Positions 934-33,091 of a stretch of 37,173 nt of DNA are shown in pieces (positions within the stretch are counted from its first letter, which is position 1; the number at the start of each line of letters is the position of its first letter). The notes below the pieces were generated by a model, which made no database searches, had not been told where the DNA came from, and worked only from the letters and a program-made list of their open reading frames with translations. Origin of the DNA: a virus; the IMG/VR virus record IMGVR_UViG_3300037041_001644, positions 1 through 37,173 of that record, one strand, 5' to 3'. Both the position numbers and the translations under genes were made by a program.

Positions 934-1242
934 ATGGCACAAGGAAGTGATGTTTTAGAATTAATTAATGGCCAGTTTGCTAATGATGTTGCATTGCAAG
1001 CGCGCGCGGCTAACTCAGCGTTTGTTACTAACATGGCAAGCGTACAATCAAATCATGCTCGTTGCGCGCAGGTTTTAGATAAGCGTATCTCTGAATACGA
1101 TATCGAAGAAAACCGAGCGGCAACAAGTTGGGACCCAGCAAGTCAAAGCATGTGGCTATCTAAAGCGAATGCTGATAGCGGCAATGTAAACATTGGCACT
1201 GGCCTACTTCTCGAAATTCTTCGCACAGCACAAGCAAAGTAA
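934..1242 (+). CDS. Unknown small protein, tandem paralog 2
   Basis: This 102-residue protein starts at an ATG after AAAGGAAGGG and is the second copy of the pair. It shares with paralog 1 the blocks GQ-ANDVALQARAANSAF, HARCAQV, DKRI-EYDIEE and DPASQS-WLSK. The N-terminal eight residues and the segment just before the last helix differ. The third codon positions differ widely between the copies while the protein is conserved. That points to an old duplication held by selection rather than a recent copy. The gene is followed directly by a strong hairpin terminator. The function is unknown. Confidence 0.82.
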   Translation: MAQGSDVLELINGQFANDVALQARAANSAFVTNMASVQSNHARCAQVLDKRISEYDIEENRAATSWDPASQSMWLSKANADSGNVNIGTGLLLEILRTAQAK

Positions 1243-28182: not shown

Positions 28183-28545
28183 ATGATAAAAATAACGGAA
28201 GGACTAGCTTCAAAAGGCGGCCATTGTCCAGTGTGTGGCCGTTTCTTCCGTCCTAATGGAGTAGGACCACAAAGCTATGAAACTCTCTCTAGTGTTTTGA
28301 ATTGGCTTCCTAGCTCTAGTATTTTGAGATATGGAGCTAACTTTCATGACTGGTATTTTCATTTAGGAAGTAATTGGGGAACACAAGAATACGCTGATAA
28401 AATCATGTTCGAGTTAAACGAAAAAGAGATAAAAAGGAGATGCAAGTGGTTTAATTCGTGGTATTACAGGTTAGCGAACAAAAGGAATTATTTATTTGTT
28501 AGGGAGTTTGGGCATAATTATTGGGATAAAGACGGGTGTAAATGA
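28183..28545 (+). CDS. Hypothetical protein with CxxC and HDW motifs
   Basis: This 120-residue protein has a CPVC knuckle (Cys15-Cys18). The later part, with YGANFHDWYFHLG (His55, Asp56) and YADKIMFELN (Asp72), recalls phage proteins of the DUF1353/phospholipase-like type, where HDW lies before an AD helix. Many aromatic and basic residues follow. No ribosome site is clear before ATG 28183. A ten-codon reading frame (28154-28186) ending in an ATGA overlap could couple translation. Its stop overlaps the next gene. The enzymatic role is only a possibility. Confidence 0.6.
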   Translation: MIKITEGLASKGGHCPVCGRFFRPNGVGPQSYETLSSVLNWLPSSSILRYGANFHDWYFHLGSNWGTQEYADKIMFELNEKEIKRRCKWFNSWYYRLANKRNYLFVREFGHNYWDKDGCK

Positions 28546-29274: not shown

Positions 29275-30156
29275 CTATTTAGCAAACCAGCACTTAGGGC
29301 GGTTATCACAAGATACCGCTTTCATCTCTACTGAGTTTCTTGGGATCTTGCTATCGCTCCATTCCTCATTTGGACACATTGTTCCGGCTAAATAGCTGTC
29401 TAATCTGCACTGCGCTTTCGGGTGGGAATCCGCTGTTTTCTTAACGATGGTTTTGTCTGGAGTAGAGTAGCTCGGAAGCTTTTCTTTGTTCAAATCAGCT
29501 AGAACTTTTCCAAGAGATAGACCAGCGTCTAGTGTCATTTGACAAACTTGCTTGTCGATTAAAAATAGTGAGCTACATGTTGACGGTTGTGGCTGTGGGT
29601 TAGGCTTTTTATTTTTCCATAGTCCATTACCAATGAACCAAATTGGAGAAGCCGGATCAAACATTTTTCGGGCGCAAGAGATAGCAGCAAAGTAATCGCT
29701 GTTACCTTCGTTTGACATTTTTTGACCCTGGTAAAATGGGTATCCACCAATGTGGTGACCGATTTCATGACACGCTACCATAGCAAAACCTTCCTTGGTC
29801 ATATATGGATGTTTCGCTAGTCCTCCAAAGAATCTTACTTGCCAGTTTTTTCCATCTTGATTGGCATAAGCGTTAACCGTATCATCGGAGTAATCACCTT
29901 CCACGCTCAAAGTTGCTCCAAAGTTTTCAAAGATCGGGGTATAGATTTCTCTGATTGCTTCTAGTACATCCTCAAAATCTTGTTCCGTGACATTACCAGC
30001 GGCAAAGTAATTTTTTGGTGAATACGTGTTTTCTGGTAAAAATGACGCATAAGAAATAACTTCTCTGGAATCATCTTTTTCAAAAGATTTGTTGAGTGGT
30101 TCAGCCGAACATGAAAACGCAGACGCAAGGACACAAAAAAGCGCGATTCTTTTCAT
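29275..30156 (-). CDS. Secreted zinc metalloprotease-like protein
   Basis: This 293-residue protein, read leftwards, starts with a signal peptide (MKRIALFCVLASAFSCSAEP). The SAFSC end could be a weak lipobox, but the A-F-S-C residues are not canonical. The zinc site is ACHEIGHHIGGYP (HExxH at residues 130-134), with a possible third ligand in MSNEGNSDYFAAISCARKMF (Glu150 or Asp154). This gluzincin-like layout is typical of periplasmic or secreted proteases. The C-terminal third is a cysteine-rich domain (Cys at ~193, 205, 248, 259, 279, 288) likely held by disulfides. Carried by a phage, it is a likely accessory (moron) gene acting on the host envelope. AGAGGAAT precedes the start. Confidence 0.78.
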   Translation of the reverse strand: MKRIALFCVLASAFSCSAEPLNKSFEKDDSREVISYASFLPENTYSPKNYFAAGNVTEQDFEDVLEAIREIYTPIFENFGATLSVEGDYSDDTVNAYANQDGKNWQVRFFGGLAKHPYMTKEGFAMVACHEIGHHIGGYPFYQGQKMSNEGNSDYFAAISCARKMFDPASPIWFIGNGLWKNKKPNPQPQPSTCSSLFLIDKQVCQMTLDAGLSLGKVLADLNKEKLPSYSTPDKTIVKKTADSHPKAQCRLDSYLAGTMCPNEEWSDSKIPRNSVEMKAVSCDNRPKCWFAK

Positions 30157-30277: not shown

Positions 30278-30571
30278 ATGAGTGACCAAGCGATAATTGC
30301 TTTAGTGTGCGCGGTAGCGGCTGGAATTGGATCACTCGTCTATTTTTTAATGGGAAATATCAAGTCCGCTTTAGAAGATGCAACAGATGATATGATTAGA
30401 AAAATAGAGAAATTCGTTGATGAACTAGCCAAGGTTAAAGAAAATGTTGCGGTAAAATCCACAATGCTCGATTATATGCAAACAGAAATAGAAGGCATCA
30501 AGAGGCATTGCTATCAATGCGAACAGAGAAACTCCAATAACAATAAAAAGGATTATAAGCATGAATCATAA
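30278..30571 (+). CDS. Membrane-anchored coiled-coil protein
   Basis: The product has 97 residues starting after GAGAGG. An N-terminal transmembrane helix (IIALVCAVAAGIGSLVYFLMG, about residues 5-25) is followed by a charged helix with coiled-coil spacing (DDMIRKIEKFVDELAKVKENV) and a CYQC pair near residues 83-86. Small membrane-plus-coiled-coil proteins near the end of a structural module are often lysis or hemolysin XhlA-like proteins. The order here (membrane helix first) differs from XhlA. No lysis function is shown. It overlaps the next gene by 11 bases. Confidence 0.6.
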   Translation: MSDQAIIALVCAVAAGIGSLVYFLMGNIKSALEDATDDMIRKIEKFVDELAKVKENVAVKSTMLDYMQTEIEGIKRHCYQCEQRNSNNNKKDYKHES

Positions 30572-31297: not shown

Positions 31298-31915
31298 CTA
31301 CCAAGCGAATTCTCCAGACAAGCCAACCATCTTTGAAGTATTACCGCCGAATAGGCCGAATATTCCAACTCCAATTGAATCATCTATGAAACGAGTATAA
31401 CCAGCACCACCAAGGCCGCTATAATATGTTTGGGCGTCCTTAGTATAAGTTGAAACACTGTCTTCAGCTTCTCCACTTGTGCTAACACCATCTTGACCGA
31501 TAGCTCCTAGCAGCCTAAATACATTTCTTTTCATATAAGGCGCAGGAACCTGATAGGGAACCTTTTTTTCTACCTCTTTAATGTGATCGATATACTTGTA
31601 CCTGTCTCGCCATTCAATCTTCGTTTCAGCTTTTGGACAGGTTTTATTCCTTGCTTCTGCTAACTGCTTTTTAAGATCTTCGATTTGCTTTTTATAGGCC
31701 GCGCAAGGATCACGCTTGATGCAATCATAGTCGTTAGGCACGATTTTGTAGTTTTGTGGATACTGTACTTTTACACCATCGATTTCTTGTGTGATGATTC
31801 CTGTAGTTTGCTTTTTTTCTTCTCCATATCCAACATCACACCACTGAACATAAACACCGAAAGCTACTAGCAACATCCATACAGAATAAACAAATAAAAA
31901 TAGGGCTTTTTTCAT
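31298..31915 (-). CDS. Membrane-anchored coiled-coil envelope protein
   Basis: This 205-residue protein, read leftwards, starts after AAAGGAAAG. A hydrophobic N-terminal segment (ALFLFVYSVWMLLVAFGVYVQW, about residues 4-25) would anchor or export it. A coiled-coil stretch follows (YKKQIEDLKKQLAEARNK, residues ~74-92). The C-terminal half is Gly/aromatic-rich and beta-like (YYSGLGGAGYTRFIDDSIGVGIFGLFGG) and ends in an aromatic residue. It is last in the operon with the HTH regulator and the collagen-like lipoprotein. An inner-membrane protein paired with an outer-membrane lipoprotein recalls the spanin pair of phage lysis, but the C-terminal domain does not fit a standard spanin. Function open. 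Confidence 0.6.
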   Translation of the reverse strand: MKKALFLFVYSVWMLLVAFGVYVQWCDVGYGEEKKQTTGIITQEIDGVKVQYPQNYKIVPNDYDCIKRDPCAAYKKQIEDLKKQLAEARNKTCPKAETKIEWRDRYKYIDHIKEVEKKVPYQVPAPYMKRNVFRLLGAIGQDGVSTSGEAEDSVSTYTKDAQTYYSGLGGAGYTRFIDDSIGVGIFGLFGGNTSKMVGLSGEFAW

Positions 31916-31936
31916 TACAACTTTCCTTTCTCAGAA

Positions 31937-32491
31937 TTAATAAGGAACACAAGGACCATGATTTCTAATTTGAAACTTTGAAATATCTTGGATCGAAATA
32001 GAAATTGTTTGCCAAGCATTACCGATGCAAGCACACACTAATAAGTTTCCGTTGGGACACGTTGGCATTGTCGGACAAGTAGGGTAAGGCGGCTGAACTA
32101 CAATTACGGGCGGTAAAGGTTGAGGATTTGGTTGAGGTTGAGGATAATTTGTAGGTTGAGGTTGTGGATAGGGTTGTGGGTAGCTTGTCGGCTGCGGCTG
32201 CGGATACGGCTGTGGGTATGATGTTGGGACGGGATTTGGCTCATTTGTTGGATACGGGTTTGGCTGTGGGCGCGGCTGGTTTCTACCATCTCCATTGCCA
32301 TTATTATCTCCTGTATCTCCTTTAGGCCCTTGTTCCCCTCTCTCACCTTTATCCCCTTTGTCGCCTTTAGGACCACGTACTCCCTCTACTTTGTCATACG
32401 ATTTACCGCAACTTAGCATCGTGGCTGTTATTAATAATAGACTTACTGTTTTTGCAGCTTTTCTACAAGCTGTTCTAATGTTTTTATCCAT
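31937..32491 (-). CDS. Collagen-like, proline-rich lipoprotein
   Basis: The 184-residue product has a lipoprotein signal peptide ending MLSCG (lipid-bearing cysteine at about residue 28). Next come eight or nine Gly-X-Y triplets (GVR GPK GDK GDK GER GEQ GPK GDT), a collagen-like triple-helix former. Then comes a Pro/Gln/Tyr-rich stretch with 12-residue repeats of the type PTSYPQPYPQPQ, and a small C-terminal domain with six cysteines. The whole points to a surface- or outer-membrane-anchored fibrous protein. Such proteins are common in some predatory and environmental Gram-negatives. It overlaps the end of the HTH gene by 49 bases and precedes the membrane protein, so they form one operon. 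Confidence 0.78.
   Translation of the reverse strand: MDKNIRTACRKAAKTVSLLLITATMLSCGKSYDKVEGVRGPKGDKGDKGERGEQGPKGDTGDNNGNGDGRNQPRPQPNPYPTNEPNPVPTSYPQPYPQPQPTSYPQPYPQPQPTNYPQPQPNPQPLPPVIVVQPPYPTCPTMPTCPNGNLLVCACIGNAWQTISISIQDISKFQIRNHGPCVPY
32128..32235 (-). repeat. 36-bp tandem repeats coding for Pro/Gln/Tyr blocks
   Basis: Within the lipoprotein gene three blocks of about 36 bases (12 residues) repeat, reading PTSYPQPYPQPQ twice and a diverged PTNYPQPQPNPQ once. The repeats keep the frame and can expand or shrink by slippage. Limits are approximate. Confidence 0.65.
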
Positions 32492-32658
32492 ATGTCATTT
32501 ACCTTAACTTCGTTGTGATAGTATCTGTACAATTGCGCTTGTGATAACCCGATTGCAAATGATACTTTTCTAACTGATCCCAGTTTATTTGCTGCTATAT
32601 CGATTAACTTTTTGCAATAAGAATGGTGATAACCATCCACTATTATACGTCTTGACAT
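32443..32658 (-). CDS. Small helix-turn-helix regulator
   Basis: This 71-residue basic protein starts at an ATG six bases after AGGGA. A helix (CKKLIDIAANKLG) leads into a helix-turn-helix, VRKVSFAIGLSQAQLYRYYHNE (about residues 29-50), and a final helix (IWIKTLEQLVEKLQKQ). The layout resembles the regulator at 3663. It is first in the lipoprotein operon and overlaps it by 49 bases, so it may control that operon by binding the repeated TTACTTCA sites upstream (32736-32789). The target is inferred. Confidence 0.7.
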   Translation of the reverse strand: MSRRIIVDGYHHSYCKKLIDIAANKLGSVRKVSFAIGLSQAQLYRYYHNEVKVNDIWIKTLEQLVEKLQKQ

Positions 32659-32833: not shown

Positions 32834-33091
32834 CTAAAAAGTGTAGGTTGTTTTTCTTTTTGGGAAGATTTCAGCACCTTTTACAATTCTAAAATCTTGT
32901 TTCATGTTGTCATTTTCTTCTAGATATTCGCGTAATTCTCGTTGATTTTGCGCGACAAACTTGATTTCTGCTAAGTAGAATTTGGACCGCTCTCTTTTAG
33001 CGCCTGACTCCTCAGCTTCTAACTCTTCCGATCTTTCTTCGCATCGATCAATTGCGCCTTCTAATTCTTCAAATGGATTTTTCTCGTTCAT
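32834..33091 (-). CDS. Hypothetical highly charged protein
   Basis: The 85-residue protein, read leftwards, is very rich in Glu, Arg and Lys. A long charged helix (FEELEGAIDRCEERSEELEAEE and RERSKFYLAEIKFVAQNQREL) is likely a coiled coil, followed by a short basic tail (FPKRKTTYTF). AAGGGGAATA lies before the ATG. It is divergent from the ribbon-helix-helix-like gene at 33167; the two ribosome sites are the arms of one 10-bp inverted repeat. A palindrome TACACT-AAAA-AGTGTA (32830-32845) lies over its stop. No family recognised. Confidence 0.6.
   Translation of the reverse strand: MNEKNPFEELEGAIDRCEERSEELEAEESGAKRERSKFYLAEIKFVAQNQRELREYLEENDNMKQDFRIVKGAEIFPKRKTTYTF

Follow-up and report, generated by a model that had tools for sequence, protein, structure and literature searches.

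We examined a row of minus-strand genes in a virus record of IMG/VR that is 37,173 bases long (the window, by which we mean the whole stretch analysed). The row includes genes for a collagen-like lipoprotein and, directly after it, a coiled-coil protein called here its partner, and we found that it may encode a two-part outer-membrane surface module produced in the infected cell, a reading to which we give a probability of roughly 0.45. Both proteins carry export signals and, judged from their sequences, are conserved as a pair under purifying selection in six phages, the window counted; both may reach the outer membrane, oligomerise, form a complex and act at the cell surface. That the module acts on the host envelope is supported by the export signals, by conservation as a unit, by an orientation opposite to the virion genes and by its presence across phages with unrelated head genes. 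An earlier, sequence-only reading had proposed either a surface module of lysogenic conversion or a spanin-like lysis pair; envelope action is supported, lysogenic conversion is not, and the spanin is weakened but keeps weight. The features of the row are as follows.

32834..33091, minus strand: small acidic protein of 85 amino acids, first gene of the row; homologue 5′ of the lipoprotein gene in all six phages (alignment A12)
32443..32658, minus strand: helix-turn-helix (HTH)-like small putative regulator of 71 amino acids; weak Pfam HTH_26 match; homologue in five of the six phages
32443..32491, minus strand: 49-nt overlap of the HTH-like and lipoprotein genes; 31-55 nt in the five phages with the HTH-like gene
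31937..32491, minus strand: collagen-like lipoprotein of 184 amino acids (alignment A6, six members)
32303..32383, minus strand: Gly-X-Y segment of the lipoprotein, residues 37-63, nine triplets; the six relatives have 9 to 16 each
32078..32278, minus strand: Pro/Gln/Tyr-rich stretch of the lipoprotein, residues 72-138, of varying length among relatives (alignment)
31940..32077, minus strand: C-terminal domain of the lipoprotein with five cysteines, residues 139-184, CAC....WQT....D.....I...G.C (alignment A9, n=6)
31298..31915, minus strand: partner of the lipoprotein, a coiled-coil protein of 205 amino acids with a C-terminus like that of an outer-membrane protein (OMP) (alignment and AlphaFold2 model)
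31823..31915, minus strand: export signal at the partner N-terminus, either a signal peptide or a signal anchor, residues 1-31 (hydropathy and alignment)
31649..31702, minus strand: residues 72-89 of the partner, predicted to form a helix (coiled coil) (AlphaFold2 model); residues 67-93 in the G017 protein
31301..31525, minus strand: predicted four-stranded antiparallel C-terminal domain of the partner with a terminal Trp, residues 131-205 (AlphaFold2)

The three open reading frames (ORFs) of the sequence-only reading were confirmed at their positions, all on the minus strand and opposite to the virion genes, and so was their tight linkage, since the 49-nt overlap is followed by a gap of 21 nt from the lipoprotein gene to the partner gene. 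To the three we add another small gene, likewise conserved, which lies upstream of them at 32834-33091.

Relatives were reached via the terminase, the head protein and a neighbouring M48-like lipoprotein. Both proteins were present in 3 of the 14 records of a first set; ten of the remaining eleven are shorter than 25 kb, and the other, G009 (40 kb), is related in its head protein at a distance only. A second set comprised 19 records (17 new ones together with G008 and G009), two of which encode the partner as well as a lipoprotein with the cysteine-rich end; nine further lipoprotein matches in this set, mostly in long repetitive proteins, were confined to the Gly-X-Y region. Altogether the pair is carried by six phages, all uncultured (G000, G002, G003, G006, G015 and G017). 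The lipoprotein and partner genes are near neighbours and keep their order in every one of them; in G003 a 92-amino-acid frame (L038:8319-8597, minus strand), not found in the other five, lies between the two. The HTH-like gene overlaps the lipoprotein gene in five of the six and the small upstream gene occurs in all six, less than 90 nt separating it from the lipoprotein gene in G002. When G015 and G017 were compared, the ratio of non-synonymous to synonymous substitution rates (dN/dS) was 0.09 for the HTH-like gene, 0.07 for the lipoprotein and 0.10 for the partner, which shows purifying selection on the pair. These low ratios and the side-by-side homologues in six phages argue that the gene pair is more than chance, and the possibility that the trio is absent from all relatives is refuted by the pair in five other phages, with the HTH-like gene overlapping in five of the six.

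Single-sequence searches with the partner alone gave no close relative in IMG/VR and chance matches only among 50,697 cultured phage records; in the same cultured records its C-terminal domain had no match and the lipoprotein end chance matches only. A first alignment-based scan, the patterns of which sat on the coiled coil and the stretch preceding it, returned nothing. The loci L086-L090 were dropped as relatives, the two inspected (L086 and L090) having in common only an EVPVE-type repeat carried by an unrelated protein, a chance resemblance. On the bacterial side, a scan of genome contigs with the partner C-terminal domain revealed no homologue, and another search gave weak matches in 3 of 17 genomes, in which the listed stretches span the helix region and miss the C-terminal strands. 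Profile searches of 368 Bdellovibrio-phylum genomes produced weak matches (E ≤ 0.1) to the lipoprotein end in 40 and to the partner end in 12; the best for each domain was judged unrelated when its ORF was seen in context. Above chance level, these 368 genomes thus gave no relative of either conserved domain, the best match per domain having been inspected.

The pair was also found in phages with other head genes. G015 and G017 had no match to the major head protein or terminase of the window, and G015 has its own terminase and a head protein of a different family. Since it occurs in two phages without homologues of the window head genes, the pair behaves as an exchangeable module. Partner identity to the window is 43% in G015 and G017, 41% in G003, 35% in G006 and 25% in G002, and head-protein identity is 63% in G003, 61% in G006 and 75% in G002, so that G002 is nearest in the head protein and farthest in the partner. 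This comparison, which is one of identities only, would fit either a swap of the module between phages or fast divergence in G002.

In the lipoprotein the lipobox-like sequence is MLSC, with Cys28 as the predicted lipid cysteine, and a lipobox-like sequence followed by Cys-Gly is present in all six relatives, so the residue at +2 is Gly in every case. Gly at +2 sorts lipoproteins to the outer membrane by the Escherichia coli rule, which may not hold in this host. The lipobox, the Gly-X-Y collagen segment and the length-variable Pro/Gln/Tyr-rich stretch, all noticed in the sequence-only reading, are present (Cys28, nine triplets and the six-member alignment); its six-cysteine end has to be revised, as five cysteines were counted (139, 145, 153, 155 and 181). 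The invariant residues of this C-terminal domain in the six sequences are C-A-C, W, D, I, G and the last C. A 12-bp tandem repeat (32160-32183) lies inside the Pro/Gln/Tyr-rich stretch. The Gly-X-Y stretch scored 17.9 bits against Pfam Collagen, below the cut-off of 27.2, and scans of the lipoprotein against Pfam and NCBIfam returned just low-complexity and Gly-X-Y-type matches. The Pfam Trypan_PARP and tail-fibre PHROG matches were rejected as being of these kinds.

The coiled coil seen earlier in the partner was recovered as a predicted helix at residues 72-89 of the AlphaFold2 model. Five of the six proteins have a GEGP/GGGP/GEE-like motif after their hydrophobic stretch. The model places strands at residues 131-145, 162-176, 181-190 and 194-203, and the same four appear in the model of the G017 protein; in both, the strands mostly have predicted local distance difference test scores (pLDDT) of about 70-83. 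When the first model was searched with Foldseek against the PDB, anchors of Hia took the first three places (probability 0.97-0.98 at E about 0.2) and a YadA anchor reached 0.66; phage YadA-anchor proteins are among the BFVD matches (probability 0.87-0.99). The C-terminal pattern of OMPs consists of an aromatic last residue and alternating hydrophobic residues. Such an end is strictly present in four of the six partners, compared with 3 of 100 window ORFs, the partner itself among the three. We infer that the partner C-terminus may be a domain of the outer membrane whose barrel would be completed only by several chains together, although the models are of monomers only. Sequence matches of the partner in PHROG and the PDB fall mostly on the coiled coil.

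Several results weigh against this reading of the partner and of the module. The N-terminal hydrophobic stretch is by inspection long and membrane-anchor-like in the window, G015 and G017, whereas that of G002, G003 and G006 is short, with a signal-peptidase-like site after it; the inner-membrane anchor of the sequence-only reading is therefore long enough in three of six partners but is not conserved. Model confidence is low (mean pLDDT about 60, predicted template modelling score 0.31). With the second model an EspP strand set came first, followed by porins, YadA reached 0.41 and no Hia was among the best 50 Foldseek rows. VIA-align gave Z below 6 throughout, with unrelated folds on top in both models, and the sensor domain of Mycobacterium tuberculosis PknI and a methyltransferase outranked the autotransporter anchors; because all Z values are below 6, the predicted autotransporter-anchor fold stays a lead. 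None of the six partners matched PF03895 (YadA anchor), compared with ten of ten phage YadA controls, and profile-profile comparison with the YadA anchor (hhalign) gave a probability of 0.5%, so that a relationship to YadA is not supported. G006 has one extra residue beyond its aromatic end, and G002 has no OMP-like end. Outside this set, a YadA-domain protein is a virion component in cyanophage S-SZBM1 (PMC9146016; this and the other articles cited by PMC number are drawn on in excerpt).

Based on these features, a surface module could be built as follows. The lipoprotein would be lipidated at Cys28 and, if the E. coli rule applies, Gly at +2 would send it to the outer membrane; the Gly-X-Y stretch would trimerise it and the proline-rich rod would extend the disulphide-rich C-terminal cap. 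The partner would pass the inner membrane by its N-terminal signal and form a coiled coil, and its C-terminal domain, with four strands per chain, would insert in the outer membrane, where an oligomer, most simply a trimer, would close the barrel, as far as the weak models can guide us. Adjacency and co-occurrence suggest that the two proteins would form one complex altering the surface of the infected cell. As to its purpose, our tentative first choice is the exclusion of other phages through a receptor that is masked or jammed, favoured because lytic phages use lipoproteins in this way (T5 Llp and Rtp45; PMC9586334, PMC12685063), and adhesion or aggregation of infected cells is possibly the second. 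A more far-reaching and rather speculative picture is that of a two-gene trimeric surface fibre, in which the collagen-like lipoprotein would cooperate with the coiled-coil partner, with a multi-chain barrel anchor that is autotransporter-like in shape but of separate origin. Phages with unrelated heads would trade it as a cassette that remodels the envelope of the bacteria they infect, which may be predators (Bdellovibrionota-like).

On the plus strand of the window the genes for terminase, major head protein and tape measure can be recognised, and the replication-type genes, also on this strand, run away from the minus-strand row upstream of 32834-33091. Given these orientations, the row sits between late and early genes and points against both. 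The overlap of the HTH-like and lipoprotein genes may couple their translation. That the first of these two encodes a regulator holds in part: the small ORF is borne out by its homologues in five of six phages, but its HTH identity is weak (HTH_26, 17.7 bits against a cut-off of 22). Promoter and terminator scans gave signals not clearly above those of shuffled sequences, and defence-system models had no meaningful match.

Some neighbouring genes were recorded in passing. An M48-like metallopeptidase lipoprotein with a HEIGHH motif (29275-30156, minus strand; Pfam Peptidase_M48 below cut-off) has the same orientation as the row in all six phages. It has 223 relatives in bacterial genomes, and 62 of the best 80 of these 223 are labelled Bdellovibrionota, which hints at a Bdellovibrionota-like host. 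A small plus-strand protein at 30278-30571, in which a single transmembrane stretch is combined with a helical tail and with CxxC at the C-terminus, has similar ORFs in all six phages and a weak Rz-like match (phrog_739, E 0.0042), and is a candidate lysis protein. The protein encoded at 28183-28545 (plus strand), which has paired cysteines at its N-terminus and the motif HD..(Y/F)H (FHDWYFH), has similar ORFs in G002, G003 and G017 and is possibly a lysis enzyme without a convincing Pfam or PHROG family. Two tandem small proteins, clearly similar to each other, are encoded at 554-871 and 934-1242 (plus strand).

The best surviving alternative to a surface module, although a somewhat unlikely one, is a two-component spanin in which the lipoprotein would serve as o-spanin and its partner as i-spanin, fusing the inner and outer membranes at lysis. 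The genes are adjacent, all six lipoproteins have a lipobox and are proline-rich, the partner has a coiled coil, and cysteines predicted to be periplasmic occur on both proteins, as in 507 of 528 two-component spanins (PMC6139136). Furthermore, in a lipobox scan the pair has the only short sense-strand lipoprotein gene in the window, the other match being an antisense ORF within the terminase gene. An N-terminal transmembrane segment is plausible in three of six partners, but the other three have a signal-peptide-like, not membrane-spanning, N-terminus; four to five of the six end like an OMP, and the genes lie on the minus strand while the virion and late genes lie on the plus strand. Rz-like PHROG matches were at coiled-coil level only and in one of the six proteins (phrog_1327, E 0.13; phrog_13, E 0.31).

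It is unlikely that the main task of the lipoprotein is to help in the biogenesis of an outer-membrane partner that acts alone, as SadB does for SadA. Its gene is directly 5′ of the anchor gene, like sadB before sadA (PMC3953254), but Gly at +2 in all six proteins does not agree with the SadB-type inner-membrane retention signal (Asp at +2), and the sequence matches of the lipoprotein in Pfam and NCBIfam are all of low-complexity and Gly-X-Y type. We consider it improbable that the pair is a fibre or tail-associated virion component binding the host surface. The Gly-X-Y stretch matches tail-fibre PHROGs, and besides the S-SZBM1 protein mentioned above, the YadA-anchor protein of Yersinia phage fHe-Yen8-01 (OR620963.1, L211) is annotated as receptor binding and particle-associated, which differs from the surface-adhesin reading of other phage YadA proteins. 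However, the PHROG matches are centred on the Gly-X-Y stretch, a lipobox and signal peptides would be superfluous in a virion assembled in the cytoplasm, and the virion genes are on the other strand. Least probable is lysogenic conversion by a temperate phage expressing the module from its prophage, as the sequence-only reading had suggested from the same row: the row diverges from the replication genes and has a small HTH-like gene at its head, but none of the six genomes, which may be incomplete records, matched PF00589 (tyrosine integrase) or PF00239 (resolvase) with working positive controls, and the 368 Bdellovibrio-phylum genomes held no domain relatives above chance.

If the pair is indeed a surface module, its conservation in phages without recognisable lysogeny genes suggests that envelope remodelling during infection deserves its own cassette. 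With two genes in about 1.2 kb, it would also be a minimal system for questions of phage exclusion, cell gluing or lysis.

Literature searches, judged mostly from the titles listed, gave no description of such a phage pair, and known systems resemble it in part. Rz/Rz1-type spanins (PMC6139136) share the adjacent lipoprotein and coiled-coil genes, the proline-rich lipoprotein and the periplasmic cysteines, and differ in that here the inner-membrane anchor is not conserved, the partner has an OMP-like C-terminus and the genes are on the strand opposite to the late genes. T5 Llp and Rtp45, which exclude superinfection by acting at the outer membrane (PMC9586334, PMC12685063), and the Lpp of mEpimmI (PMC11893012) are likewise phage-encoded lipoproteins; in the excerpts cited they are small, act without a second phage protein and are not described as collagen-like. 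The SadB lipoprotein of Salmonella helps the neighbouring trimeric autotransporter SadA (PMC3953254), and in sadBA as here a lipoprotein gene directly precedes a coiled-coil and anchor gene, although SadA is a long bacterial adhesin and the collagen-like repeats are found here. In Salmonella phages that have no lysogeny module, yadA homologues are located apart from the tail genes, and the 2013 study describing them left their role open (PMC3728262). Finally, gp119 of phiEco32, annotated as a 'tail protein' or 'agglutinating adhesin', has a signal peptide and a coiled coil (both by inspection), Gly-X-Y repeats and a YadA anchor. It is one protein where the window has two, it differs by the lipid anchor found here, and the anchors are without sequence relation; yet gp119, itself encoded opposite to the virion genes, and the related phage 'agglutinating adhesins' share with the pair the combination of Gly-X-Y repeats, a coiled coil and a four-stranded outer-membrane anchor, the last of these being predicted for the partner.
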